The notes beneath the pieces are model-generated. The model was not told where the DNA came from. It made no database searches and saw only the letters and a list, made by a program, of their open reading frames with translations. This document shows, piece by piece, positions 9,834 through 56,402 of a stretch of DNA of 64,000 nt. The DNA comes from Prorocentrum cordatum (Eukaryota > Sar > Dinophyceae > Prorocentrales > Prorocentraceae). The translations under genes were made by a program, and so were the position numbers. The DNA is taken from NCBI GenBank assembly GCA_963575745.1, contig CAUYUJ010017660.1:572501-636500 (forward strand). The letters run 5' to 3'. Each line of letters opens with the position of its first letter. Position 1 is the stretch's first letter.

Positions 9834-9836
<3 letters not shown>

Positions 9837-9855
9837 GTTGCCATTTTGGCTCAAG
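9834..9855 (+). other. relict spliced leader at the 5' end of the LINE
   Basis: A full-length 22-nt match to the dinoflagellate spliced leader with one mismatch (CCGTtGCC for CCGTaGCC), ending in GGCTCAAG. It is followed by 113 nt of leader and then ORF1. Because the SL is added only to mRNA, its genomic copy implies that a trans-spliced RNA was reverse transcribed. Confidence 0.9.
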
Positions 9856-9968: not shown

Positions 9969-10838
9969 ATGGCGACGGAGATGAGCGCGGTGCTTGAGGA
10001 AATGAAGAAGATGACTTCGGCATTCCAGTTTCTCACTGGGCAGGTGACTGAGATGAAAGAAAGTCTTCCAAAGTTCAAAGATGGCATCTCGAAAGAGGTG
10101 AAAGAGACCATCGATAATCGTACTGCGGCTCTCGAGGAGCGGATGACGACGCTGGAGAATAAGCAGACCACTGCAGGTTCTTCAGTTGGCGCTCCCTCGA
10201 AGGTATCACAGGGTGGTCTCAAGCGGCGTCTTCTCTCAACTGGGCAGGGTTCTGCTGTGGGCACTACGACGGCGGATTCGAATGATTCTATGGTATGGAT
10301 GAATGGATGGCTTCGCCCCGCGCTTCGTGCTCAGCGCGAGAAATGGCATACCGAGATGGCTGCGCAAATTCCTGCTGATAATCGCACGTGGACGGAGACT
10401 TACTTAGCTGCCATCAGTCATAGCTACATGTTGAAGTTCGAGAATGCGGAAGCTGCTAAAGAGTTTCGTACCATGCTCAATCGCAGCAGTGCCACGTGGT
10501 CTGATCCACGTTCGCAGGTGAAGTTCCACACTAAAGCTCGCCAGTATTTGCCTGAAGATGTTCGAGTTCGTCAGCGGGCTCTCGCTAAGTACTACGATCC
10601 GATCAAGCAGCATCTGGTCGCGAAGAATCTTTGGACGCAGGATATGCCCATGTCTGGTAGCGGTTTCAGGAACGAGTTCTGGGTCATCAAGGAGGTGGAA
10701 GTTTACCCCGTGCTAAAGGCTGGGGTCGACTCCCTCGGCCGCTACATCGTCGCGCCCAACCCGTCCGAGATCCAGGCCCGAGGCATGGACTTGAATGCCA
10801 TCACCGCTATTGTTGCTAGCCCCGCTTCCTCGCATTAG
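9969..10838 (+). CDS. LINE ORF1 protein (289 aa)
   Basis: ORF1 proteins of LINEs bind element RNA and act as chaperones in the ribonucleoprotein. The frame is intact and starts at the first ATG after the SL and leader. Residues about 5-65 are heptad-rich with alternating Leu/Met/Val and charged residues, predicting a coiled coil for trimerisation. Residues about 105-235 form a mixed, Trp/Arg/Lys-rich globular part (WLRPALRAQREKWHTEM, then FENAEAAKEFRTML) whose layout resembles the RRM-like core of LINE ORF1p. That fold is inferred. The stop lies a few bases before the ORF2 frame, as expected for a bicistronic element. Confidence 0.7.
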   Translation: MATEMSAVLEEMKKMTSAFQFLTGQVTEMKESLPKFKDGISKEVKETIDNRTAALEERMTTLENKQTTAGSSVGAPSKVSQGGLKRRLLSTGQGSAVGTTTADSNDSMVWMNGWLRPALRAQREKWHTEMAAQIPADNRTWTETYLAAISHSYMLKFENAEAAKEFRTMLNRSSATWSDPRSQVKFHTKARQYLPEDVRVRQRALAKYYDPIKQHLVAKNLWTQDMPMSGSGFRNEFWVIKEVEVYPVLKAGVDSLGRYIVAPNPSEIQARGMDLNAITAIVASPASSH

Positions 10839-26692: not shown

Positions 26693-26703
26693 CAGAACAA
26701 GAT
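26693..26703. repeat. 11-bp target-site duplication, left copy
   Basis: CAGAACAAGAT is found here and again at 37440-37450. The left copy ends the reading ...KQTHQNK and the right copy starts QNKMPKSEF..., so one copy belongs to the Copia gene and the other was made by the insertion. Confidence 0.9.
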
Positions 26704-26724
26704 TTTCTGACCCCTATAACCCCC

Positions 26725-26759
26725 GTTTGAAACACGCGCGCGCGGCAAATATTTGAAAC
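26725..26759. repeat. left subterminal GTTTGAAAC / CAAATATTTGAAAC motifs
   Basis: GTTTGAAAC at 26725 and GGCAAATATTTGAAAC at 26744-26759 match the palindromic repeats of the centre of element X (31.3-31.6 and 32.8-32.95 kb). Confidence 0.65.
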
Positions 26760-26884
26760 GGCCCCTGTCTTACGACGCCCGTCGAGGACGCGCGCGTCCC
26801 AAGCCGACCCCCAGCAACCCCCAGTAAGTTCCGACATCGCGATGCGGCTTATATCGCGACTACTCCCAAACACCGCTCGCGCAT

Positions 26885-27400
26885 CGCATACAATCCTCCT
26901 CCTCCCCCTCCCTTTCTGTCCATTATCCATTATCCCCCTTCCCCTCCTCCTCCTCCCCCTCCCCCTCCTCCTCCTCCTCCTCCTCCTCCACCTCTTCGCA
27001 TTCCTCCTCCTCCTCGCCTCCTCCTCCTCCTCCTCCTCCTCCTCATCCTCCTCCTCCTTATTCTTCTTCCTCCAGCGTGAGCTGCATCGGCCACTGGCCT
27101 CCTCCTCCTCCTCCTCCTCATCGTATTCCTCCTCCTCGTTGTCGTCGCCGTCGTCCTCCTTGCCGTTGCCGTCGTCGGCCCGGCTCGGCCCCCCTTGGCG
27201 CTGCGCGGAGGCGGAGGAAAGGCAATGGGGCGGGCGAGGAGCGGGAGGGAGAAGAGGGGGCAGGGGCAGCAGCAGGAGGAGCAGGGGTGGGAAGAGGGAG
27301 CAGGAGCAGGAGGGACAGGAGGGACAGGAGGGAGGAGGGAGGGGGAGGGAGGAGGAAGAGGAGGTGGATGAGGCTCCCAAGTTCTGTCTGCATCCCAATA
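26885..27400. repeat. opposed pyrimidine and purine tracts
   Basis: TCC-rich DNA (26890-27145) is followed after about 60 bp by GGA-rich DNA (27205-27365), so the two halves are roughly complementary and could fold back. This block lies beyond the 3' end of gene A2. Confidence 0.75.
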
Positions 27401-27603
27401 TCATTGCTGCGAACATGTTAACTCTTCATGAAAACTGTTGCGCCCAGGCGCCCGTGCCCCCACCACGCAGCACGCGCTGGCAGCGCCCGATGTCCAAAGA
27501 ATTCCACCGATCGGATCGGAGGTCGATACAACAAACGCGCGCGGCACATCAACTTCAGCACTCATCCCTCGAAGAGTGCTAGCGCTAACTCACTCGCGGC
27601 TCC

Positions 27604-29433
27604 TCACTGGAGCAAGAATTTCGACAAGCCCGTTTGCTTGCCTGCTGGTGCGCGAGGCGAGGTGCCGTCAGCGCCGCCAGCAGCGGCCATCACTAGTTGG
27701 GTGCTCTTTGCAGCGTGATTATTGGCGACGCTTGTGGACACCTGCCCGGGGATCGGCGGCCTGCTGAGAAGCACGCTTGGCTCCCCCAGCGAGGCCGCGC
27801 TAATCTGGAGCCGCGGAAGTGCCACCTCAACAGTGATGCTCTTCTCCCTCGCAGCCATGGCCTGGCTGTATACAAACTTCAACACGTGAGCTGTCGTCTT
27901 GAACTCCATCGTCGGCTCGCCCTCGCTCTCCCTCACCAACCACCCTGGGTTGAACACTTCGCCGTTGATTACCTTGATCACAGGGTCCTGGACGTAGAAC
28001 CTCATGCCGAACGCCTCGCATATCGGGACGGCGTTCTGAGTTGCGATGTTCGGCACGTGGCCCACGAGGTTGAGGACGATGTCATTGCAGACTGGCTTCG
28101 CGATGAGCCATGTGTCCTTCAGTTTCCCAGAGTAGTCGATGCACGCGTTCTGGGTGCCCTTGTCGGAGCTGGAGCCCGACGTCACGTCGTAGAGGAAAAG
28201 CTCGACCTTTGCCATGAACCTCCTGATGACCATTGGATGCACGGGCGAATTCGAGCTGTGTGCATTCCCGTCCTGGCACGACGGCTCCGCGAGCTTGCCC
28301 TCCGAGTCTTCGCCCGACCCGCACATCAGATGCATGAGCGTGTCAACGGCGCTGAGCTTCGAGACGTCGTGGACCGAGTCATCAGATACAACCTTCGCTC
28401 TCTCCACAATTGCCGCATCGCGCTCGTTGAGCGCAGCCGTGCGCTTCTCCACCTGCTTGCTGATGAAGTTGAGGACTGCGGGGATGTCGCCATTGCTAGC
28501 TCTGCCAAGCAGCGTGGACCATAACTCCACCCACATCTCGCTTGAAGTCATCAAGACATCTGCCCTACCAAGGAGGCCCACGGGGACCGTTGAGAGTTTG
28601 TGGAGCGCCGCCGTGAAGTCGTCGCCAGTGACCTTGCAGAAGCCTGTGGATGTGTTCCCGATGACATGCACGGTCTCTAACACCCTGTCGAAAGCGAAAT
28701 CCTCGCATTGCTTGGTCGTGTCGAAAACGCCAACCATCACGATGGGCACTTGTGGCTTCAAGCCTTCGCCTTCACCACGGTGGTCGCAGCCCTGGATGAG
28801 CGGCGCTGCAATCGCGCTCCGAATGCCCTCCACCATCTTCAACAAGCTGGCCCTTGCCGAATGCAACGATGACAGGGCAACTGAAATGCTGACGTTACCT
28901 GGAATGACGGCGGGGTCAGACCTGACACCCTGGAGTAGCTTGGAGAAGTGGTCGCGCGAGCAATGTGCCGACGCGAAATCGATGGAGCCCAAGGCGGCCT
29001 TCAGCTCGTCCACCGAGGTGCCGCTCAAGAAGACCTTCAAGTCGTGCTCCCACACGGGCCTCTCGATGTCCATCGGCACGATCTGGTCTTGCGAATCGTT
29101 CTCTGAGCCTCCAGCGGGCCGCGAATCCACGACCTCGGGCTCGGCGACGGGCGCGCCCTCAATGCCAGCGCGCATGTGCCACAGGTAGTTGCGAAGGCCC
29201 GCCTGCACCTGAGACCACTTGGTCCAGCGCTGCGGCTTCTTCGAGTTCGAGACCCCGTCGGTCGGCGGCAGAAGTGCATCGACGCCCTTGGAGTTGCCGC
29301 GACCGTTCTTGACGACGAGCGGGAACTCCATGCCCCTCCGAAGCACGGTATCAACTTCGCTCCATTGCACGTCGCCGTCGGCGATGCCCCCGATGACAGA
29401 CTCGACTGCAGAGACCAAGCAGTCGAGCATCAT
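27604..29433 (-). CDS. element X gene A2, unknown protein (609 aa)
   Basis: A long uninterrupted frame beginning ATGATG that overlaps the A1 stop in the sequence ATGA. No family is recognised. It is of mixed composition and looks globular: residues about 130-190 and 210-330 are rich in hydrophobic heptads. Residues about 410-540 contain MRFYVQDPVIKVINGEVFNPGWLV, with alternating beta-like runs, and the last 60 residues are Pro/Ala/Ser-rich. There are no obvious membrane spans, signal peptide or nuclease motifs. Codon use and the lack of stops suggest purifying selection until recently. It could instead be the C-terminal half of A1 joined by a -1 frameshift. Confidence 0.75.
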   Translation of the reverse strand: MMLDCLVSAVESVIGGIADGDVQWSEVDTVLRRGMEFPLVVKNGRGNSKGVDALLPPTDGVSNSKKPQRWTKWSQVQAGLRNYLWHMRAGIEGAPVAEPEVVDSRPAGGSENDSQDQIVPMDIERPVWEHDLKVFLSGTSVDELKAALGSIDFASAHCSRDHFSKLLQGVRSDPAVIPGNVSISVALSSLHSARASLLKMVEGIRSAIAAPLIQGCDHRGEGEGLKPQVPIVMVGVFDTTKQCEDFAFDRVLETVHVIGNTSTGFCKVTGDDFTAALHKLSTVPVGLLGRADVLMTSSEMWVELWSTLLGRASNGDIPAVLNFISKQVEKRTAALNERDAAIVERAKVVSDDSVHDVSKLSAVDTLMHLMCGSGEDSEGKLAEPSCQDGNAHSSNSPVHPMVIRRFMAKVELFLYDVTSGSSSDKGTQNACIDYSGKLKDTWLIAKPVCNDIVLNLVGHVPNIATQNAVPICEAFGMRFYVQDPVIKVINGEVFNPGWLVRESEGEPTMEFKTTAHVLKFVYSQAMAAREKSITVEVALPRLQISAASLGEPSVLLSRPPIPGQVSTSVANNHAAKSTQLVMAAAGGADGTSPRAPAGKQTGLSKFLLQ

Positions 29434-31148
29434 TTTAGGCCGGGTGCGCTGGCCACCCGCATCTGCCGCAGCCCCCCCTCGGCAGGGGCGCCGTCAGCAT
29501 CGGCATCGGGCTCCAACACTTCGTGTTCCAAGCGCGCATCCCTGGTGATAATCTCGGACGGCATCTGCGCTGCCTTAGCCTTTGGCTTCTTCTGTTTGTT
29601 GGCAGTGGACCCCGTTGTCCTTGCCGCCCTGCCCCGCTTGGCGGGCGTCGCTGCCGTGCCCTCGAGAACCACAGCGCCTTCCATTGGAAGCATGAAGCCC
29701 TGGATCGATTCCGATGTACACAACTCGAAAGTCTGCGTTGCAGCTTGACTATCAGTCGGCACCGCAATCGAGAGTGCCTGCGTCATAACGCGCTTGAACA
29801 TAATAGGGCGCATGGAACTCTGGAATTTCATCACTACTGTCAGAATATCACTCGGGACGTTCAAGACCGCGTTCTTGGAGTACTTCGGGTGCAGGAAATT
29901 CGCGAAGGCATCCGCGGTCTCGGAGTAGGCTTCGAAGAACTTGAGCCGATGCAGCGCGTTGTACAAGTTTGATACCCGACCGAGCTGGTAGGGGTTCTCG
30001 AATCTGTGTTGGCCGTCCTGGTAGAGGCTGTTAATGTAGGTGAGCCTCTGCTTGCGGTATGTGTCGTCTCCTTTCGTTGGGCATGCCCAAGATCCACCTA
30101 GCTGCTTCCTCGAGTGTTTGCTCCACTCGGCGAGGTACTCCCCCAGCTGTGACAACACTTCCACGTGTGACGTTGAGGCGCCCGAGCGGATGTCATTATG
30201 CAGAGTCTTGAGGTACTTCAAGACGTCCGAAGGCGTCCTCTTGTGAAAGACTGTGCAATGCTTCAGGCCGTTGGCCAGCGTGCGCAGCACGTATTTGTTG
30301 GAAGGTTGCGCCTTGAAGGCGTCGTACACGGCCTCCACCATGGTGGCGCCACTCATGAGCGCGTAGGTGCCGTGCTCACACTCCACTGCCCACGGCTCGC
30401 CGCGCACGCCAACGAACATGCCCTTGGTGAGCATGCATTGGGCGTAGGCTTCGCGCGTCCGCCGCTGTCGGCGATTGTTCTCAGGGCGCCTGCTCAGCAG
30501 GGGCTCGGCGCTGCTGCCTTGCTGGGAGGAGGTCGATGTGACAAGGGACAAGGGGAGTAGGACCAGGAGGACAAGGAGAGGGACTGGATGGGGGGAGAGG
30601 AGGTGACAAGGGGAGTAGGACCAGGAGGAGGATGAGCCTGATCGGAAGTACGACAGCGTCACGTCCTCGCGGATTGCGTACACCTCGAACACAGCTGCCT
30701 ATGGATGATGCAAGGATTGTTGGGGGTCACCGTTGGGGGTCACCGCTGGGGAAGAGGGACCTCTTGGGGCCCCATCGGGACCCTCTCTCTTGGCCACCTC
30801 GAGGCCCTCCTGGGCCCGCTTGGAGGCCCATCTTGGGGCCCTCTTGGACTTCCCGTGGGGGCTCCTCCTTGGGTCCTTCTGGGGGCTCCTTGGGTCTCAT
30901 CTCCGAGGCTCCTTGGGTCCTCCCTTTGGGCCCCCATAGGCCTCTTGGACTTCCCTTGGGGGCTCCTTGGGCCCTTGGGCCTTGTATCCGCCCCCGTCAA
31001 GGGCCTTATTGGCGGCGTGTAAGAAGTACCACGCATCTCGTTCTTTCGAGCGGCAAGCCTGAAGAAGGTTGCCGTCGAGCTGCGGGAACCTCTGCGAAAT
31101 TGACGGTAGAGGCTGGTAGAGCTGGTCCGCATGCACAGCAGAAGTCAT
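29430..31148 (-). CDS. element X gene A1, unknown protein (about 438 aa, three exons)
   Basis: Exons are 31148-30981, 30698-30638 and 30517-29430. Both introns have the dinoflagellate pattern AG|GC...AG|GC: intron 1 is 282 nt, intron 2 is 120 nt with a long pyrimidine tract. Joining the exons keeps one frame (..GGGYK + AAVFEVYAIRE.., then ..YFRS + GSSAEPLL..). The start ATG lies 35 nt after the relict SL; an earlier ATG at 31152 is in another frame. Residues about 75-90 are Arg-rich; the rest is helical with YLKTLHNDIRSG and NPYQLGRVSNLYNALHRL. The C-terminus is Lys/Ala-rich, then acidic. No family is recognised. The stop TGA overlaps the A2 start. Confidence 0.72.
30518..30637 (-). other. 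A1 intron 2 (GC-AG, 120 nt)
   Basis: Borders read TCAG|GCTCATCC and CAGCAAG|GCAGCAG on the minus strand, with AG|GC at both ends. The interior is a pyrimidine tract with a 25-bp direct repeat (30546-30570 and 30604-30628). Removal joins TCA G with GC AGC in frame. Confidence 0.75.
30699..30980 (-). other. A1 intron 1 (GC-AG, 282 nt)
   Basis: Borders read TACAAG|GCCCAAGG and CATCCATAG|GCAGCTG on the minus strand. The body is made of GGGCCCAAGGAGCCCCCAAG-type repeats (TTGGGGGCCC on the plus strand). Removal joins AAG with GCA in frame. Confidence 0.75.
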
Positions 31149-31183
31149 TCATGAACAATCGCGAAGATTGACTGCCCTCAAAG

Positions 31184-31205
31184 TTTGAGCCAAAACAGCT
31201 ACTGA
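31184..31205 (-). other. relict spliced leader upstream of A1
   Basis: On the minus strand, TCAGTAGCTGTTTTGGCTCA plus AA matches 18 of 22 SL positions. The 3' half TTTTGGCTCAA is perfect. It lies 35 nt before the A1 start codon, where a recycled cDNA would carry it. Confidence 0.65.
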
Positions 31206-31289
31206 TGCACCGGGCTGCGATGAGTCGCACGCTGTTGACTGCTGTGATTTGGGGTGGGTGTTTTGTTCAAGTCGATTCACAACGCAGCC

Positions 31290-32960
31290 GAATCTCTTTT
31301 CAAACTATGTTGAACAACCCCCCTGATCTCTTCAAATTGTTTGACACACCATTGCCACGTTTCAAATTATTTGACACGCGCACTGCCCTGCTTTGGAAGA
31401 CCCGCCAGCTCTGTTTCAAATAATTTGACACGCCACCTGCCCCGTTTCAAATTATTTGCACACCACCTGCCCTGCTTTGTAACACCCCCAGCCCTGTTTC
31501 AAATATTTTGAAACACCCCACTGCACTGTTTCAAAAGATTTGCCACAGCAGCTCCTTCGTTTCAAAATATTTGAAAGAGCGTGTTCTACCGCTGCTGGCG
31601 GAAAACCGGGGGGGGTCACTACCGGTTCGAACCCTCCCCCCCCCCCCCCCCCTCCGGAAAACCGGGGGGGGTCACTACCGGTTCGAACCCCTCCCCCCCC
31701 CCCCCCCCTGCTCATCATGAAAAGGGGGGGGGGTCATTACCGGTTCGAACCCCTCCCCCCCCCCCCCCTCCGGATCCGGAAAACCGGGGGGGGTCACTTA
31801 CCGGTTCGAACCCCCCCCCCCCTCGAAAACCGAGTGGGGGTGCGGACAGTGGTGGGGACGGTGTTGGTGGGGACAGTGGTGAGGGGATAGCGGGACAGTG
31901 GTGGGGACAGTGGGACAGTGGGACAGTGGTGGGGACGGTAGTGGTGGGGACAGTGGTGGGGACAATGGTGGGAACAGGGGGGGACAGTGGACAGTGGTGG
32001 TGACGGTGGTGGTGGGGACAGTGGTGTGGGGACAATGGGAATGAGGTGGAAACAGTGGGACAGTGGAGGGTACAATGGTGGTGGGGACAGTGGTGAAGGC
32101 GGTGGCGAGGACGGCGGTGGGACAATGGGACAGAGGTACAGTGGGGACAGTGGTGGGGACAGTGGGGACAGTGGTGGGAACAGTGGGACAGCTCAGTGGG
32201 ACAGCGGAGGAGTCAGTGGGACAGTGGGGACAGTGGGGATAGTCGGGCAGTGGTTGGGGCCGTGGAGACAGTGGGGAGAGTGGAACCGTGGTGGGAACAG
32301 TTCTGGGGACAGCGGGGACAGTGCGACAGTGGTGGGGCCACTGGTGGGGACAGTAGGGGCGGTGGTGGAACCAGTGGGGACAGCGGTGGTGAGGACAGTG
32401 GTGCTGGGAACACCAGTGGGGGATGTGATGCGGACGGTGGTGGGGACCGGGAGTCGTTTGCTGGCGGTGAGTAGGGGGGGGGGGGGGGGGGGGGGGGGGG
32501 AGAGGGGAGGGGGGGGGGTTCGAACCGGTAGTGACCCCCCCCCGGTTTTTTTTTCCGGATCCGGAGGGGGGGGGGGGGGGAGGGGTTCGAACCGGCAGTG
32601 ACCCCCCCTGGTTTTCGAGCGGGGAGAGGGGGGGGGGGGAGGGGTTAGGGGGGGGGGGTTTTGCCGGGTGAGGGGGGGGGGGGGGGGGGGGGGGGGGGAG
32701 GGGTTCCGCAGGGGGGGGGGATTTTCGGAGGGGGGGGGGGGGGCGGACCCCCGGGCTCCGGAGGAAAAGGTTGGCAATTTTCCACAGTAAAGCGGCGGTG
32801 GATCACGCTCTCTCAAATATTTGAAACGCGCCCATCTGTGTTTCAAATATTTTGAAACATCCAGCGGTCCCGTTTCAAAATATTTGACACAACCCCTTGT
32901 CCTGTTTCAAAATATTTGGAACACTACCGCCCCCGTTTCAAATGATTTGCAGCGCCCCTT
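31290..32960. repeat. symmetric nested repeat centre of element X
   Basis: Order along the sequence: eight copies of a GTTTCAAATATTTGAAAC-like palindrome (31297-31575); four copies of CCGGAAAACCGGGGGGGGTC with ACTACCGGTTCGAACCC and long C runs (31598-31830); a GTGGGGACAGTGG minisatellite (31836-32470); the same GGTTCGAACCGG unit in inverted orientation with long G runs (32471-32760); then five more GTTTCAAATATTTGAAAC palindromes (32815-32952). The block therefore reads almost the same from both ends. It separates gene A from gene B and has no supported coding sequence. Confidence 0.85.
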
Positions 32961-33049
32961 GTGCCGCGGCCCACCGAGCTGTGCCACGTGGACACCGCCG
33001 AGGAGGTCACCGAGCTGATCCAAGGGCCCTCGAGAAGCCACTCGCTGAA

Positions 33050-33425
33050 ACGAGGGGAGAGCAGGAGATGAGCAGGAGAGGAGCATGGGGCAGGAGAGGA
33101 GGAGGAGAGGAGCAGAATAGGAGGAGGAGCAGGAGGAGGAGGAGGGGCAGGAAAGCAACCAGAGGAGGAGCAGGACGAGGAGGAGGATGCTCTTGCGACC
33201 TTTTCTTAATCATTTCAGAATATGTCAGCTCACGTTGCATGCTGGGGCAGCGCGTGATCGTTCTCTGGCGCTGGAGGAAGAAGAAGGAGGCGGAGGAGGA
33301 GGAGTGGTCCTCCTGTCCTCCTCCTCCCCCTCCACCTCCTCCTCCTCCTCCTCCGATGCCCTTCCCCCTCCTCCCCCTCGTCCCCTCCTCTGCTCGGCTG
33401 CCCGACCATCACTAGTCTTAACCTT
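33050..33425. repeat. opposed purine and pyrimidine tracts
   Basis: GGA-rich DNA (33055-33305) is followed by TCC-rich DNA (33310-33400), mirroring in reverse order the tracts at 26885-27400. It lies beyond the 3' end of B2. Confidence 0.7.
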
Positions 33426-33452
33426 TTTTTTCCAGCGCGCCCTCTCGAGTTC

Positions 33453-35621
33453 TCAAGGGCGACAAAGGTTGCATATGTGAGACTCGTCTAGGTGCCAGGC
33501 TGCAAAGAGACGGTCGAAAGCGCAAGCGGCGCCAGCACACGTTGCAGCACTCACAGACGCGTGCCTCTTAGACGCTTTGAAGCACGCGATATGCCCGTGT
33601 AACAAGCACAGCGGGCATTTCACGACAACGCCATCTCTCCCACCGCAAGCTGCGCATGTCTCCACAAGCATGCGCGACGGATCCGCACTCTAACCGTTGC
33701 AAGCTAGAACACTGCACATCTGTTTCAGACGGAGGAGGCACGGGTCAAAGTAAGGCCGATCTGCGACTCTGCATTTGACCATGGCGGTTCCAGTGCTAGC
33801 CAAAATGACTTTGCACGTGTCGTCCGTGTAGCACCGAAAACGAAAGTACCCAACAGGTGAAACGTTGCATCTCCCTTTCTCGTCCGAGTTCACAATCTGG
33901 CCGCACATGTCGCCAGCGGCCTCGAACTGCGTGAAGGTAACTGTCAGATTTCCGTCCTCGCCGATTGTTGCTACCAACGATACGTGTTTCGTAAGGGGTC
34001 TGACCTGATATTCGTCCCTGCAGCGCTCGATGCACTGCTGAGACAAGAGGAACTGATCTTTCCAAAGCCTACGCAACTCCAACAACCGCGCCTCTGACAA
34101 TGGCTCAGGCGTCGGCACGCCTTGCTCGTCGCATGGGCCGTCGTCGGATTTCGTGTCAGGTTCGGGCGCTATGTCGACTGCGATCCCATCCAGGACTGGT
34201 TGGTCGCCATGGTCGTCGTCGCTGTCGGCATCGCCGCCCTCGTCTTCCAATGAAGGGGGTCGGCCTGGAGCGGCTGCGACGCATTTGCGTTTGCTGGGTT
34301 CTGGTCGTGGCCACGCCGCGACCTCCTCCGAAACAACATCGAAAGACCCCACCCCTGACCATGCAATCGTCTTCAAGTTGACTTCCAAATGCGACCTTTC
34401 TGCGCCAAGTAACGAAGTAAACATATCCCACCCGTTGACTGCATTGATCGGACTATGGAGCCCAAGCGGTCGCCCATTGCCCTCGCCAGTCGCAGTGGCG
34501 AACACCTGCACGTTGTAGGGCGAAATGGTTGGCGCGTACACAATATCGCCCACAGCGACGCCGATGGCGAACCTCTCTGGGGAGTTGCGCCGTCCGTGCA
34601 CATTGGGGGCCCATGCCCTGCACGCCCTGTCCCTTAGCTGCTTGTCTCCATCGGCTGGCGCCCTCTCAGGTTCTGGGGCGGACGCAGCGTCAATTGGCGG
34701 AGGCGTCGCGAAGCGGCCTTTCTGACCCAAGACTGATTCGATTGACTCGAAATGTTCCACTGCCTCGTCTCGGAGATTCTCGATGGATCCTCGCACGTCG
34801 CTCCAGTTCAATCTCATCTTAGCACTCCGTGAGCCGAGCCCGCATCTTTTCGAGTTGTTGACCTTGCTGCTGAGCAGCGGTAAAGATATTGTCGGGGCGA
34901 TAGCGGACTCAATTGCTATGGGCGAGTTCATGCCCTCGACCTCCTGCGCATCTGGCCTCAGGGACCTCCCGATGCTGAGCGCGACGCGGTGCACCTTCAT
35001 GCTCTGACTCACGTTGCCGTCGACCGCAGCTCGCGCGAAATCGTCGTGGAACTGAGCGCGGAGCCTGAATAGATTGAAGCCCACCCCCAACCTGCTCAAG
35101 TCGGCGCCAGGCCGAAACGCGAACACGTCGCGAGCGATGTTCTTCCTCAGTTCGTTCGGGCCGTCGGGGTCACCAACCCCGAGCGCCAGCAGTCGCACTG
35201 GGTAGACGTTGCATCTGCTACAGATGCGGTTATCAAAGTCAGCGGCAGCGCACGCTGCGCACCGCGTCGCGCCCATCAGAACCTTGGCGCGAATGCCGCA
35301 GGGTAAGTCGTCATCCCCCTGTGGCGCGCCCCCCCAAGCCGACCGTCGAACAGCAAGCTCAGATACTTCGGTATGGAAGTAATCTGCTTTGCCCGCCGCC
35401 AGCGCCGCTAGGCATCCAGGCTTCCCCGCCTTGATTCTCTCGTCGTGACTTTGCAGAAATTGCCGAATTCGTCAATGGCGTTGCCAGCGCGGTGTGACAT
35501 TCGCAAGACCACCCAAACATATATCACACTTGAGGCCCGCGGTGGCGCCTGACAACCACTTGGACAGTTTCTCTTTGTAGTCGTCTCGATCCTCCCTGCC
35601 GATCTCGCCTATCGACATCAT
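33453..35621 (-). pseudogene. element X gene B2, zinc-binding protein of unknown role
   Basis: One frame of 722 codons from an ATGATG start 43 nt after the B1 stop, interrupted by TGA at 35474-35472 and TAG at 33692-33690; coding character continues unchanged past both. An N-terminal LKCDIC pair lies near 35535. A C-x2-C...C-x2-C pair (CAAC, CSRC) lies at about 35260-35210. Asp/Glu/Pro-rich linkers sit in the middle. After the TAG the last 73 codons form a PHD/RING-like cluster: C-x2-C-x9-C-x2-C-x4-H-x2-C and a final C-x2-C. Zinc binding is inferred from spacing; its role in the element is unknown. It may instead be the C-terminal part of B1. Confidence 0.6.
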
Positions 35622-35663
35622 GGCTCCTATTGTTTTTCTCTACGTCGGTTTCTTCGTTGCATT

Positions 35664-37091
35664 ATTTGGCGAGCTTGCGCGTCTTTGAGCCCGATGCGGC
35701 CATGAATGCTTCGGCCATGGTTTTACTCGGCATGGCAGCGAGAACAGACTCGCACGTAAAGAGCGATCCCCACCTGTTGGCGATGCACTTCGGCGGCCTG
35801 CGAGACGTGAACTTCTGTGCTGAAGCGACGCTCGCTTTGAGAATCCATAAGCAATGAATTGACCTGGCGTGCCCCCTCCATACGTTGAAGATCTTCGCGA
35901 CGGTCGCAGGGTAGTTTACACTAGCCGACTCCCACAGCCTGAGGAGCTCTGAGCCTCACTGCAGGATTGCACCCTTGATGAGCTGGTGCTGGTGGTGCAA
36001 GCAATCGCAGTCGAATAAGTATACCCCTGGCGCCTCATTCAACCGAACGGACTCCTTTGCAAGGCATCTCATCTTGGACTCGTCGGAACCAGCGTCAGTT
36101 ACCATGCATAATCTGGAAACTTCGTTTGCTATCGGATCTGATGGTCTTGGCACCCCAATCGACTCCAAAGCTTTCAGCACCATCGCGTAACAATCCCTGC
36201 CAGTCGATCCCTCGACGACTTGCAGGTCAGCAAAATCTTTTCGTGATTCCTCCTGCTCGTTGTCCCAACTGAAGTAGTTTGTAAAAGTCACAACCGTCAT
36301 TAATTTCGACCTTTGCCAGACTTCGGCATTCGTCGCATCGCTCCGAATAAAGTAAATCGCACAATCATGCTCATCGGCCGTGGTTGCGTGAAACCTCCTG
36401 CTGGACGCGACCAAGGCTGCGTCCGCCTTGATCTCCCATGCTGTGACAGTGGTCGAACTAATGTCCATGCCCATTGACAAGCCACACCGCGCGGCTGAGA
36501 CGCGCGATGTGATGCGACGCAGGGCAACCTTCATCCCAGCACGATATGATAAGTGTTGCCCAGATTTTCTCTCTACGATTTGTTGTTGTAGAATATCGAT
36601 CTTATTCGTCGCAACGGCTAGCTTAGTCTCCAAACGTTTGTAGGCCTTTCTCTCGACGTGCAGCTGGCATTGCAACGTATTCGCTCGCTCGAACTGCTTT
36701 CGAACAATCCGTTGTGTGCCGACCCCGACGTCGTGAGGTACAGCGGCTGCAGCCGCGCCGCGCTGCCAGGATCGAAAACTACACAAGATCCCTCTATATG
36801 TCGTGGTCGCACGGCCTCCCAGCCGTCTTTCCAGCTTTGCCAAGTACATGCCACTCCCAGTGTTTGCATTGCCCCGGAGACCACGTCGAGCTCGAAACCT
36901 TCTGAAACAGGCAGGTAATATTTATCCCAACTCTGCGATGCTGCGTCTTTGCACACCGCCTCACCTACAAGATGTTCGAAGCACCATATAACGTCTGTCA
37001 AGTTTGTCTCTGGGATGACTGCGCAACCTCTTGACTCTGAAACATACGCGCTGAAAGTGAAACGAAGTTTCCATATCAGTGCAGGATCCAT
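35664..37091 (-). pseudogene. element X gene B1, DDE-transposase-like protein
   Basis: The ATG directly follows the relict SL. The N-terminal frame runs to about 36720, then a frameshift leads to the frame ending at TAA 35664, with one in-frame TGA at 35958-35956. Order of parts: an N-terminal region (SESRGCAVIPETNL); a coiled coil (about 36690-36580); a helix-turn-helix-like ARCGLSMGMDISSTTVTAWE (about 36490); R-S-D-A-T (Asp codon at 36339); VTDAGSD (36096); C-L-H-H (about 36003); and, past the TGA, ANRWGSLFTCE. Asp...Asp...C-x2-H...Glu is the layout of RNase-H-fold transposases of the hAT/Mutator type. Copies at 47.7 and 55-56 kb share these motifs. Transposase function is inference. Confidence 0.65.
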
Positions 37092-37113
37092 TCTGAGCCA
37101 AAACGGCTACGGA
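37092..37113 (-). other. relict spliced leader directly before B1 ATG
   Basis: On the minus strand CCGTAGCCGTTTTGGCTCA matches the SL with one internal change (A to G at position 10 of the 22); the last two bases read GA instead of AG. The next three bases are the B1 start codon. Confidence 0.85.
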
Positions 37114-37439
37114 CAAGGTGTGTCATGACTGCGCAATCTTCGAGGCAACGCGATTTCCAACGATGTGCCTTGCAACCAATGCTAGTTCAACGGTGAATGG
37201 CAACAAAAATGAGCTCTACCTTATAATCTCCGCCGGCCCCGCTCAAGGCCCCGAGGCGCGCGGCCACTTGAAAAAAGTAGCGTGCTTCCAACAAATGCCA
37301 TATTTTGTTGGGTGGTCCCAGGAAAACGTGATCGTGATTTTTCGTGCCAGACCCCCCAAACGTGGCAAATATGTGCGACGACCCTCCGTTTCAAATTGCA
37401 TTATGTTGCCCGCCCAAAACCCCGAAATCACGACCCCTA
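37114..37439. other. right end of element X, non-coding
   Basis: No gene is seen. GGCAAATAT at 37364 and GTTTCAAAT at 37388 echo the motifs at the left end. Sequence up to the duplication ends CACGACCCCTAC; the left end begins TTTCTGACCCCTATA, which shares GACCCCTA in direct rather than inverted orientation. Confidence 0.55.
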
Positions 37440-37450
37440 CAGAACAAGAT
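37440..37450. repeat. 11-bp target-site duplication, right copy
   Basis: CAGAACAAGAT is identical to 26693-26703. Reading from the left copy into the sequence after this copy restores the Copia frame. Confidence 0.9.
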
Positions 37451-38156
37451 GCCCAAGAGCGAGTTCGGCCAGAACGTGTTCGGGTACGTGGAGCGCCTCC
37501 ACAAGAACCTGGGCCACCCCGGCACGGAGGTGTTCCTGGGGATGCTGACGACAGCGGGCGCCATAGAAGAAGTCACCACCTGCGCCAAGCAGTGCAAGTG
37601 CGCCAGTTGCGCGGAGCGCAAGCGAGCATCACAGCCACCGAAGTCGGCACCAACTTCCTGGACGACGTTCAACCAGGCATTGTACCTGGACTTCTTCGAG
37701 TTCAAGTTGCGCTCAGTCTCGGCGAGGATTGCGCACATGCTGGACGGAGCTAGCCGGTTCCAGAAGTGCAGGATCGTCAACCGTGAGACGACCGCCGAGG
37801 CCATCAAGTCCATCGAGAAGGAGTGGATTCGGCACTACGGGATCCCAACCAACCTCATAATGGACGAGTGCGGCGCAGCATGCAGTCAGGAGATGCTTGA
37901 CTGGGCCAGCCAACACAACGTCAAGATGCGAGTCGCCCCTGGCGAGGCTCATCAGGTACTGGGCCCCGTGGAGCGAGCTCACCAGGCCATGCGCGAGACG
38001 ACGGAGCTCTGGTTCGAGGAGACCGGCCTAGAGCGCACCATCGAGAACCTGAAGACAGCACCGGACTACGTGCCCAACCAGATAAACAGGATGATGCACC
38101 ACAAGGGATACAGTCCAGCACAGTGGGTCCCGGGCTGGGCTACAACCCCGAGCTGA
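37449..38156 (+). pseudogene. Copia integrase domain
   Basis: Integrase joins the cDNA ends to target DNA. The frame resumes right after the duplication. The zinc-binding part has H-x4-H (HKNLGH, about 37498) and CKCASC (about 37596). The catalytic core has Asp in LDFFEF (about 37687), Asp in MDECGA (about 37860) and Glu in GPVERAHQ (about 37968), giving the DDE triad of retroviral-type integrases. A one-base loss near 38120 shifts the true frame, which then continues as GYNPELNDPLSADTLRTPAA. No start codon is expected, since this is an internal part of the polyprotein. Confidence 0.88.
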
Positions 38157-47658: not shown

Positions 47659-47679
47659 TCCGTAGCCATTTTGGCTCAG
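47659..47679 (+). other. relict spliced leader of the B1-family copy 2
   Basis: CCGTAGCCATTTTGGCTCA is perfect here, preceded by T and followed by a single G. It is therefore the 22-nt SL lacking one A before the final G. It overlaps the start of the copy 2 open frame. Confidence 0.92.
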
Positions 47680-49563
47680 GCGTCAGCCCCTCCATGCCAT
47701 TGGGGGGGGTGGGCGCATTTCGTCGGGCCGTCCAGCCCATCGCCGAGCGAGGCCGATGCGCCGCCCAGCGGCGGCTGGGCTGCGTTCGCGGATGGCGACG
47801 CGGGCGGCTGGGAGGCTCTCGCGGGAGCAGCAGGCTCGTTGAGCCCTGTCGAGGACGGCGCCGAGGAGCCCGCGCGGGACGGGCCTCCGCTGGACAGGGG
47901 GGCTAAGCGGCGTCGGCGGCGCGCCACCGCCCAGGAGCTGTGGCGGCCCGTTGGTGCTGCTCTGGCGGCCAAGGACGTCGCCGCGCCGCTGGCAGCTCCG
48001 CGCGGCGACGTCGAGCCAGCCGACGGCGAGGGCGCCTCTGAAGGCGACGGCGAGCCAGCCGACATCGAGGGTGCCGTTGGCGACGTCGTGCCCGATGAGA
48101 TGCAGATTGTTGTTGCTGGTCCAGTCGGGCCGCCAGCTGATGCCTTAGATCAGGACTGCGAACGTTTACGGGGCCTCCTGCATGTTCAACGGCAGCGTCG
48201 CGGTAGCCTCCTGTATAACCCATTGTTGGTTGCGCTTGGCGTCATAAGAGAGGACCCTGACAGACCAGGTATGTTCGACAAAGTGGCAACATATACGATC
48301 AATGCGATCCGTGGCAAACTGGCGAACCATATGATGAGTGAAAGTGTCAGTGCCCAAGCTGCTGGAGTTAGCAGGTCGGTGTTCGCAAGATGTAAGTCAC
48401 GGTTTGTGGCGCTGGCAATGTTGACAGAACGAGCAATGGCCATCAGCATGATGAATGCTTGCGTTGGGAGGGTTACAAGTGCAGGTGGCGAGTGCATGTT
48501 GTTTTCTCAACAGTGCAGGTTTGATGGGACGAAGCTGGCAGCCGCATGTTTTGACAACGACGACGCATCCTTGGAACTAGCAGTTGGAACCGCGTTGGAG
48601 CGACACGACCTTTCCAGAGCTCAGATCGACATGGACGGCGGCAGAGAACCAACTCATGTGTCAAAATTGCCATTGTTGAACACAGAATGGTTGTACACTA
48701 TGTTGTTCAAGATCGGTGGATCATACACTGAGGTTTCTTTCAACGTGCTCGTGCCGATCCAGGTTATGACGGCTGGCAAAGGCGAGAACTACGCAGCCGC
48801 GGTGGAGGCGAGTGGCTTGGATACGCCTGGAGTGTCGAGGTTGTTCAAGCACAGGCAGAGGGTTGTGTGCACGGATGGCGACGGTGCGATCGCCAGGGCT
48901 GAGAGGTTTTTCAGCGTTCTGGATGCTGGGCAGTTGGCTTTACACAACAGGTGCCACGTCCACAGGGCAGCGACTGCGAAACATGATGCGTGTTCCCTTC
49001 GTTCAGGCCTCATCAGCTCCCTCACGCACACAGCGCTGGCACTCAAGGGCCCCAGTTGCATGCTGGAATTCCGCAAGATCGTTGGAGACATCGTCATGAG
49101 GCGGCTCAACATTGTCAGGGACACGCTGCCGCACCCCAGAGTTGTTGCCAAGAACGCAGATGTGTTGTATCGTTTGTTGCCAGGCCTCCACGATACCAGT
49201 GCGGTCAAGCGCAGGACTGTCATATTGTCGTTGGCCAATGGTTCTTGGGATGATACGGAACGGGTTCACTTTTTCACGACATCTGACAAGCCAGATGCGT
49301 ACATCAAGCGCTTGTTTCGCAACGTTCGTGAAAGCGCTTGTTGGAGATGGTCCTAAATCGTTCCCTAGTCGGAATTGGGCTGGGTCTGAGGTCACGCCGT
49401 CCTGGATCGGTGTTTTGTTGGCGGTTCACAATATTTTCGCTGAAGCCTTCGTGGCGTTCTGCAGGCGAGCTGGTACTACTGGTGATTATGCTGCACCAGG
49501 CTGCCTCCCTAAACCCGCCATCCTCTTCGCCCCCCTCATCTCCGTCCCCCATCTCTTCTTTGC

Positions 49564-54448: not shown

Positions 54449-56345
54449 AGGCTCCAGAGGCGCGTGCCCGAGCTGATGCAGTACCCGGAGCGCGGCATGT
54501 GCGACATCGACGCGATCGCGTTCGTACTCTGCGACGCTCGTGCTGTGCCAGCGGTCGTGCTAGATGCATGGAGGACTGCATGTAGGACTTTGTGCCGTGA
54601 ATTCGGTGTGCCTGCTCCTGATGACAGGGCCCCAGCGGCCCCAGCGGCCCCAGCAGCATCGCCAGCCTTGGCCCCGGACCCGTCGGGCACGCAGTCCCTG
54701 CTGGACGCAGCCCTTGCTCGGATTGCAGTGCTGGAGCGCAGGAGCTAGGGAGTGGGGAATATGGCTTGTCGCCCGTCGCCCACGGCCCTCCCTCCTACTA
54801 CCCTCCTACCTAACCCTCGTAGGCTTCTCCTGTTGAGGTTTGCGGTTCCTTTCGTTGCCGCAGGTCGGATTCGGCGCGCTGGCGGGGCTCAATGGTCAGA
54901 ATCTGTTTCGGCCCCTCCCCCGCCCCTTGCCCTGTTGCCCGAGCCCCAGAGAAAGCGCCCGAATCCAACTCCCCGTGGGGGGGGGGGGTCGACGGTCGGC
55001 GGGGTGCCTTCGCCCATGCCCCCATGCCCTTAGGGTGGAGACGTTGCAGGCCGACAAAAAGTCATTGAAACTTCAGCTGAAAAACGAATCTCGCAAAAAC
55101 GAGCGCCTCCAGAACAAGATTGAGCACAGCGAGCAAGAACATATTCATAAGATTACGGTGCTGCACTCAGAACAGCTCAGGCGGGGGCCTTCACAACGGT
55201 ACTTCTCCGTCCAGGGTGGGTTCATGCTGGCCGCGCGTCGAATTTTGGCAGGTGGCGCATCCAGGAGTTTCGGTTTTGCCTTAGGCATGGATATCATGAG
55301 CAAGACAATAACACCATGGGAAATAAAGTTGCGCGCCGCGCGCGTGGCCAGCATGAGGGCTTACATTAGATCGGGCGTTGCTAAAGTCCCCCTGGCCCGA
55401 GCTGCCCCCCCAGAATTTCCAAGAAGGCCCCCGCGGCCTCCAGCGCACCCCTCACTCGGCCCAAAGGTTCTCCCCGGAAGCCCCCAAATTGAGTGACGGC
55501 ACCTTGGGCCAGGGGCACATTTTAGCAACTCCCGACTAGAGAGAGTTACTTGGCAATCCACCGGGAGCTTAGCTACCGCATCAGCTCGGTTGCTGGCGGT
55601 GAGCAGGCGTGGTCCTACGCCCTGCACACGATCAGAGGGGACGCTACTAACGCCAAGGTTGGCCCTGGGACCATCAATCAGAACATGCCCTTGGCTCGAG
55701 CACGAGAGCTCCCCGGAGTGCCGCCAAGCCTATTCGGGCTGGTCTCCCCCTCCCCTGTCCCCATTGTCGTCCTCCGTTTGCCCCCTCTCCTTTGCCAGCT
55801 CCCCCCTATCCACCTTGATGGCTCTCTGATGGCTCCGCCTGCCCATTGCAATCAACCCGCACAGTAACGTTAACGGACAACTTCCCAACTTTCCAAGGTT
55901 GCCCTGCAAGCCCTTGCACCCTTGCCCCTTCGGCTCAGCGGCTTTCGTCGGCCAGAGTCGGCCAGCCCCGTTTGCCGTTTGACAACCGTTAACGTTACGT
56001 TGCGCTCCAAGGCCCATGATACCCACAGTCAGTCCTCAGACTATGGATTCCATAGTATGAGGACTGACTGTGGGTATCATGCAAGGTGTGGCAGAAGCAG
56101 AAGCTCCACGCAGTGGAAGTGACATGCTCGTTCGTCAACTCACCGATATTGCCGCGCCACGACTACGTGGTCGATGTGCTGCCCCGCGTGCACACCAGGA
56201 AGCTGCTGACCGACTTGCAGGTGCACGTGCACGGCAGCGGATGGGGTGCTCTCAGCATGCTTCGCAAGCAGCTGGCGAGCATCGGGCTGGACACGACGTC
56301 GGCGTCGCATGTGCCCGCCATCTGCTGGTCTGCGGGTGCTGCCAA
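54449..56345 (+). CDS. B1-family (DDE-transposase-like) copy 3, multi-exon fragment
   Basis: Four exons join in one frame: about 54449-54741, 55034-55369, 55540-55657 and 56086 to about 56345. The first junction completes a coiled coil (ARIAVLER + RVETLQADKKSLKLQ). Exon 2 carries a helix-turn-helix-like FGFALGMDIMSKTITPWE, matching B1 GLSMGMDISSTTVTAWE. Exons 3 and 4 read HTIRGDATNAK + VWQKQKLHAVEVT, matching B1 YFIRSDATNAEVWQRSKLMTV, followed by LLTDLQVHVHGSGWGALSML against B1 DFADLQVVEGSTGRDCYAMV. About 17 residues in exon 3 are absent from B1. The second Asp and C-x2-H parts are not found, so it is truncated at the CT microsatellite or continues beyond an unrecognised intron. Start unknown. 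Confidence 0.65.
54742..55033 (+). other. copy 3 intron 1 (GA-AG)
   Basis: Borders are GCGCAG|GAGCTAGG and CCCTTAG|GGTGGAG, with AGG at both ends so the exact cut is ambiguous by one base. A TAG right after the border is skipped and the coiled-coil heptads continue across. A pyrimidine-rich stretch precedes the acceptor. Confidence 0.7.
55370..55539 (+). other. copy 3 intron 2: transposon-like intron with inverted repeats
   Basis: The interval is bracketed by TAGA (55367-55370 and 55537-55540). It carries terminal inverted repeats: TCGGGcGTTGCTAAA at 55371 and, in reverse complement, TCGGGaGTTGCTAAA at 55535, each continuing into CCCCTGGCCC. Removing 170 nt joins ATT AG with A GAG in frame. 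It has the features of an introner: a mobile element that makes its own splice sites with its target duplication. Confidence 0.72.
55658..56085 (+). other. copy 3 intron 3 (GT-AG, 428 nt) with foldbacks
   Basis: Borders are GCCAAG|GTTGGC and ATGCAAG|GTGTGG, with AAGGT at both ends. Joining AAG with GTG restores the B1-like motif NAKVWQKQKL. Inside, GTAACGTTAACGG (55864) is inversely repeated as CCGTTAACGTTAC (55986), and a long hairpin ends five bases before the acceptor. Confidence 0.8.
56016..56080. repeat. near-perfect 32-bp inverted repeat, 1-nt spacer
   Basis: Arms 56016-56047 and 56049-56080 pair at 31 of 32 positions (ATGATACCCACAGTCAGTCC outermost), with one base between. In RNA this would be a very stable hairpin just before the splice acceptor of copy 3 intron 3. 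Confidence 0.95.
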
Positions 56346-56398
56346 CGTGTCGCATGTTTCTGATTCGCCTTCCCCCCGCTCGTCCCTCCCCCCTTTCT

Positions 56399-56402
56399 CT
56401 CA

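Follow-up and report, generated by a model that had tools for sequence, protein, structure and literature searches.

Dinoflagellate genomes are huge, and their transposons are, to our knowledge, poorly classified. Among the DNA transposons described in other organisms, members of the hAT superfamily have YARNG termini and transposases, exemplified by that of Hermes, in which the conserved residues D, D, CxxH, RW, and a late E follow each other in this order. Mutator-like elements (MULEs) are flanked by 9-bp duplications, often carry a second gene, and have a motif order of their own. In the literature, hAT elements are described as making 8-bp target duplications and being 2.5 to 5 kb long (PMC3942097), and Merlin elements as having 8- to 9-bp duplications, 5'-GG termini, and a DDE_Tnp_IS1595 domain, with related proteins in Symbiodinium (PMC8101967).

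The window analyzed here, a 64,000-nucleotide stretch of the Prorocentrum cordatum genome with a GC content of 60%, contains a Copia retrotransposon interrupted by a large insert with genes of its own on the opposite strand. The reading that we favor, with a probability of a little under 0.9, is that this insert represents an inactive remnant of a DNA transposon of the cut-and-paste type with terminal inverted repeats (TIRs), a member of a large family in this dinoflagellate genome that uses a 9-bp stagger and a DDE-type transposase encoded by ORF1. The features of the element are listed in Table 1.

Insertion site, element ends, and empty sites

As noted in the first-pass annotation, the 11-bp sequence CAGAACAAGAT is present on both sides of the insert (26693-26703 and 37440-37450), and reading across the insert restores the Copia polyprotein just before its integrase: ..QTHQNK joins MPKSEFGQ.. 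directly upstream of the integrase core (rve, E = 7.8e-8). In a search of the host assembly allowing up to 3 mismatches, the uninterrupted 33-base Copia junction was found at 25 other sites (14 with 2 and 11 with 3 mismatches; none with the reversed-pattern control). Judging from these 33 bases, which were all that the comparison covered, the 25 sites probably represent Copia relatives without the insert.

Five further full-length copies with the same boundaries, one of them the twin of another, are present in the host assembly (4.13 Gb, 21,875 contigs). The first 400 bp of the window copy match five other sites, all from the same first base (one match ends at base 370), and its last 410 bp match the same five sites at 98% identity. 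The six copies are thus those in the window and on contigs C19804, C9502, C20754, C13496, and C5969. The copies on C19804 and C9502 are one insertion, alike in 9649 of 9651 bases and in all 1000 flanking bases on each side.

The absence of clear inverted termini, reported earlier, holds for the window copy and fails for the family. The other five copies start with TAGGGGTCGTGATTTATATTGATTTTCTGACCCC, as opposed to ATTTTCTGACCCC in the window copy, which is 21 bp shorter, and their right ends read ..AAATCACGACCCCTA (with a 2-bp insertion in C13496). The family has a perfect 15-bp TIR, TAGGGGTCGTGATTT, which occurs at 10 exact sites in the 4.13 Gb, all of them at the ends of the six copies (none for the reversed control): at both ends in four copies and at one end each in the window copy and in C13496, where the other repeat carries the 2-bp insertion.

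Nine-base-pair duplications flank five of the six copies, which count as four loci because C9502 is the twin of C19804: GCCATGGAC at C19804 (the same locus as C9502), TGAGTAACC at C20754, GTCGTCGTC at C13496 (within a microsatellite), and CAGAACAAG in the window. The copy on C5969 has both inverted repeats and no target duplication; this full-length copy (C5969:150326-159900) may have a rearranged flank or lie at an assembly join. The empty site of the C19804 insertion is present on C21203, where it is exact over a 32-bp joint; its left and right flanks are 97.9% and 98.8% identical to those of C19804 over 238 and 757 bp, respectively, and overlap by exactly 9 bp. Together with the 25 Copia junctions, this gives empty sites for two loci; none was found in the host assembly for C20754 with up to 3 mismatches.

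The duplication in the window is therefore 9 bp long, CAGAACAAG, and the 11 bp reported earlier consist of these 9 bp and a 2-bp chance match. The window copy has lost the first 21 bp of its left terminus; the next bases of the element are AT, and in our reading these equal the AT that follows the right duplication by chance. Of the two ends said to be fixed to the base, the right one stands and the left one is displaced by the truncation, which illustrates how the boundaries of an element can be misplaced when a copy is truncated. The insertion is real, and its interpretation as a discrete mobile element nested in Copia is supported by the presence of both ends, identically bounded, at other sites, by the different duplications, and by the empty sites.

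Table 1. Features of the transposon copy and its surroundings in the window
Positions	Strand	Feature	Basis
26693..26701		Left copy of the 9-bp target-site duplication, CAGAACAAG	9-bp size from other copies and empty site
26702..37439		Transposon copy as it stands, ~10.7 kb, judged inactive	Copy comparison
26702..26760	+	Left end without the first 21 bp of the family left terminus (15-bp repeat and 6 bp)	Comparison with five copies; no exact repeat here
27607..30698	-	Second gene (ORF2); lies in two frames in window copy; 1025-1031 aa open in 3 of 6 copies	Reading frames of six copies
31184..31204	-	Weak, degenerate match to the spliced leader, upstream of ORF2; 4 mismatches	Leader scan
31360..31576		AT-rich TTTCAAAT-ATTTGAAA-like repeat array between the genes; goes on past the nested insert to about 32930	Pattern search
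31577..32813		Nested G-rich insert, 1.2 kb; short inverted ends, flanked on each side by a CAAA(A)TATTTGAAA repeat	Ends read by eye
33456..37091	-	ORF1, predicted transposase gene; frameshifts and stops in window copy; 1213 aa open in 4 of 6 copies	Reading frames of six copies
37092..37112	-	Spliced-leader-like sequence abutting the ORF1 ATG; 3 mismatches ungapped, 2 edits	Leader scan
37425..37439	-	Right terminal inverted repeat, inwards TAGGGGTCGTGATTT	Copy comparison, genome-wide repeat search
37440..37448		Right copy of the 9-bp target-site duplication, CAGAACAAG	9-bp size from other copies and empty site
37449..38156	+	Continuation of the host Copia polyprotein with its integrase core	rve domain match

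Genes and interior of the element

Both genes are broken in the window copy, and intact proteins of 1213 aa (ORF1) and 1025 aa (ORF2) are encoded in some of the other copies. The dN/dS ratios among the six copies, about 0.6 to 2.4, give no sign of recent constraint. The same pattern that detects the TTTCAAAT-ATTTGAAA repeats between the genes finds them nowhere else in the window. The G-rich insert that interrupts these repeats is missing from the other five copies; it has short inverted ends AGAGCGTGNTCNACCGC, ACCGGTTCGAACCCC repeats, and a 13-bp near repeat flanking it. By eye, the region 30690-31150 may contain a first exon of ORF2, immediately following the weak leader copy, and an intron rich in repeats that ends before position 30690.

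Relatives in the host genome

With the six copies excluded, relatives of ORF1 were found on at least 28 other contigs (of 4,738 candidates from a first look, 38 were scored) and relatives of ORF2 on at least 30 contigs (45 scored of 1,465). At least 10 contigs carry both, with the ORF2 relative located 3' of the ORF1 relative on the same strand, about 2 to 12 kb apart; the ORF2 matches listed include none on the remaining 18 of the 28. The window itself contains a fragment of another ORF1 relative (54840-55493; 33% identity over 121 aa). By eye, DNA that contains inverted repeats and is either intron-like or inserted appears to interrupt this related transposase fragment (54840-56400).

An alignment of ORF1 with relatives from 17 of the 28 contigs (18 rows) revealed a set of invariant residues, D-D-CxxH-RW-E. 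Asp331, Cys362, His365, Arg438, and Trp439 are conserved in all 18 rows, Asp250 in all 15 rows that cover it, and Glu717 in 16 of 16; several of these rows are near-copies of one another, so they represent fewer independent lines. Asp250, Asp331, and Glu717 are the candidate catalytic triad. Between subfamilies, dN/dS was 0.11 to 0.27 in the four pairs with finite dS, rough values because dS exceeded 1 in each, and two more pairs were saturated; five close pairs gave 0.52 to 2.35. We would read this pattern as constraint between lineages followed by drift after insertion. The AlphaFold model of a piece from the window, built from 3 rows, was of too low quality (pLDDT 42.5) to show an RNase H-like fold.

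Element ends could be located for two of the more distant relatives. On C16744, where the ORF1 pieces are 45 to 69% identical to those of the window family, the left end is CAGGGGTCGTAAATC and the right end, read inwards, TAGGGGTCGCAACTT (CAGGGGTCGT../TAGGGGTCG..); these ends were chosen by eye and by similarity to the family repeat. The 9-bp flanks agree in 6 of 9 positions, and the interrupted satellite resumes beyond them, again by eye. On C20368, where ORF1 identity is 27% in the genome search and 24% in the alignment, the 12-bp TIR TAGTGATGTGCG is present at both ends, about 20.1 kb apart, and GCTATAGGG flanks the element on both sides within an 8-bp satellite. The lengths of the duplications at C20368 and C13496 are not unique because both lie in short tandem repeats. 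Where ends were found, the relatives carry apparent 9-bp duplications. C13691 shares the 3' but not the 5' side of C20368. When C16744 and C2259 were scanned for pairs of TIRs flanked by near-intact duplications, neither yielded one, and the ends of the C2259 element were not found. A self-hairpin seen at the left end of the family (TAGGGGTC..GACCCCTA) is not kept in C16744 and was dropped as a general feature.

Comparison with known transposon superfamilies

The remark in the first-pass annotation that the element fits no standard class can be divided: it belongs with the TIR DNA transposons, and its predicted transposase matched no family model searched. Neither ORF1 nor ORF2, compared singly with 5.8 billion proteins, had a homolog at E ≤ 0.001 among the approximately 8,000 scored candidates for each. 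A search with the 18-row alignment recovered one 325-aa ENA protein that has, by eye, those motifs that its length can cover. Pfam, NCBIfam, and PDB sequences yielded weak matches alone (best E = 0.0097), which were taken as chance, and none of 18 pattern matches in viral contigs was confirmed. The enzymes typical of Polintons, Helitrons, and Cryptons (polymerase, Rep-helicase, and tyrosine recombinase) had no Pfam match in the ORF1 or ORF2 proteins at E values up to 5. Models of hAT (e.g., Dimer_Tnp_hAT), MULE, Merlin (DDE_Tnp_IS1595), and the P element (THAP and transposase domains) were absent both for ORF1 and among the families listed (25 of 30) for 18 members. The titles and beginnings of abstracts retrieved from the open-licence literature contained no description of this transposon family.

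In layout, the family is nearest to hAT (Hermes, Ac, Buster, and Tip), with which it shares short TIRs starting with T/C-A-G, the cut-and-paste logic, and the order of conserved residues, and it can be expected to work like hAT-type transposons. It might accordingly be a highly diverged hAT member that has kept the same mechanism, with hairpins formed on the flanking DNA, and has changed its stagger from 8 to 9 bp. The termini of all three subfamilies with known ends fit YARNG (TAGGG in the window family, CAGGG/TAGGG in C16744, and TAGTG in C20368), although in the papers cited here this consensus is given for P elements only. The D, D, CxxH, RW, and late invariant E of ORF1 follow the order seen in Hermes, and by sequence this order would fit a hAT D-D-E enzyme with the tryptophan in an inserted helical domain; the AT-rich internal repeats are reminiscent of hAT subterminal repeats. 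However, the duplication is 9 bp rather than 8 bp, the elements are about 9.5 to 20 kb long and carry two genes, and there is no detected sequence similarity or dimerization-domain match. In a comparison by hhalign with four hAT proteins from the same genome, the probability was 0.1 percent, below the 0.5 of the reversed control, with a hAT profile that was thin and mostly C-terminal. Because of the 9-bp duplication, the length, and the negative domain and profile tests, the family was not filed as hAT; its membership in that superfamily is unsupported and appears unlikely.

Assignment to one of the known classes with 9-bp duplications, MULE or Merlin, is highly improbable. The size of the duplication fits both, Merlin elements are likewise TIR DNA transposons, and a second gene is shared with many MULEs. 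However, the ends here are 5'-YAG rather than the 5'-GG of Merlin, the protein is far larger and is accompanied by a second gene, and the domain searches were negative for both classes, for ORF1 itself and among the 25 of 30 families listed for 18 members. Unlike MULEs, this family has very short TIRs and a different motif order, and the three MULE matches found in this genome are on other contigs.

The preferred reading, a TIR family with DDE-type cut-and-paste transposition, leaves the superfamily unassigned and possibly new.

Spliced-leader sequences next to ORF1

The dinoflagellate spliced leader is given as DCCGUAGCCAUUUUGGCUCAAG in the literature (PMC6050394), and 24,192 copies of its tag were found in the host assembly at up to 1 mismatch (0 for the control). 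A near-copy of the leader is located 0 to 8 nt before the ATG of ORF1 in five of the seven families examined, the start codons outside the window family having been picked after the leader was seen. These copies differ from the leader by 2 edits in the window family and in C17243, where the copy overlaps the ATG by one base, by 3 in C13311 (and its near-twin C904) and in C2259, and by 4 in C14433; in each case, none of 200 shuffles of the 203-bp stretch did as well. The other two families, C13691 and C16744, failed this test (7 edits, reached by 67 and 59 of 200 shuffles, respectively) and have, by eye, a degenerate leader core near their starts. A plain leader scan of the other 12 relative loci (L029 and L035 to L045), most of which begin inside the frame, found none. 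The sequence upstream of ORF2 in C20754 resembles the leader only weakly, with 5 edits, as did 3 of 200 shuffles.

Dinoflagellate retrogenes similarly carry genomic spliced-leader sequences upstream of open genes, and those with leader relicts are described as common (PMC6050394). The leaders here lie within 0 to 8 nt of the ATG, as opposed to the usual -50 to -100 given for retrogenes (PMC6050394), and they belong to divergent transposase genes inside a DNA transposon. Spread of the genes by retroposition of spliced-leader mRNAs, with the flanking repeats incidental, would account for the leader-like sequence that adjoins the ORF1 start in five of the seven families. However, the full copies share noncoding ends, intergenic repeats, and both genes; TIRs delimit them, 9-bp duplications flank five of the six, and the ends that were read have no poly(A). 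Retroposition is scarcely credible as the source of these copies.

A mere relict should decay at the divergence seen, so the genomic leader would either have been retained because it serves as a promoter or as the leader of the mRNA or have been regained repeatedly. The family allows a test of the function of a DNA-encoded spliced leader. More tentatively, and with odds short of even, it may be the founding example of a separate superfamily, numerous in this genome and marked by 5'-YAG ends, a 9-bp duplication, linked ORF1 and ORF2, and the D-D-CxxH-RW-E set, in which selection maintains a genome-encoded leader on the transposase gene, as a promoter or a ready-made leader for the mRNA, so that the transposon imitates the 5' ends of host mRNAs.

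Two further leader copies, each with 1 mismatch, are present elsewhere in the window. One (47660-47680) contains the listed start, at 47671, of a 561-aa open frame (47660-49356) with DGTK, CTDGD, and RCHVH motifs that by eye resemble those of another transposase; this frame has no similarity to ORF1 (E = 0.11) and no Pfam or NCBIfam match. The other (9835-9855) lies 113 nt upstream of an ORF (at 9969) with a LINE-like appearance by eye, which suggests a retroelement whose copies begin with the leader.

Proposed transposition mechanism and abundance

The weakest alternative, in which the element lacks inverted termini and is flanked by a duplication of 11 bp, reflects the appearance of the window copy alone and has a negligible probability, given that the five other copies have the missing 21 bp and that the duplications, where present, are 9 bp long. 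The preferred reading, a TIR DNA transposon, agrees with the inverted repeats, the target duplication with its empty site, and the conserved acidic triad, whose catalytic role is predicted; the ends, the duplication, the empty sites, the linkage of the two genes, and the conserved residues are direct observations.

Under cut-and-paste transposition, the ORF1 protein, acting as a DDE-type transposase with the candidate residues Asp250, Asp331, and Glu717, would bind the YAG.. ends, excise the element, and join it to the target with a 9-bp stagger, and gap repair would then produce the 9-bp duplication. ORF2, which accompanies ORF1, probably encodes an accessory protein with a binding or regulatory role. 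The window copy would have entered the Copia element by this route and later taken in the 1.2-kb insert, the frameshifts, and the stops, the order of these later events being conjectural. Its 21-bp loss starts either exactly at the left cleavage site or a single base earlier and may represent a failed excision that was resealed by end joining.

The family provides repeat annotators with a search model, and its ends and target duplication are defined for use in assays. In the first-look searches of the host genome, ORF1 gave 4,738 candidates, hAT 48 (8 matches), and MULE 64 (3 matches), figures that are only roughly comparable because the queries differed in length. The abundance of this transposase in the genome is suggested rather than measured because only 38 of the 4,738 ORF1 candidates were scored.
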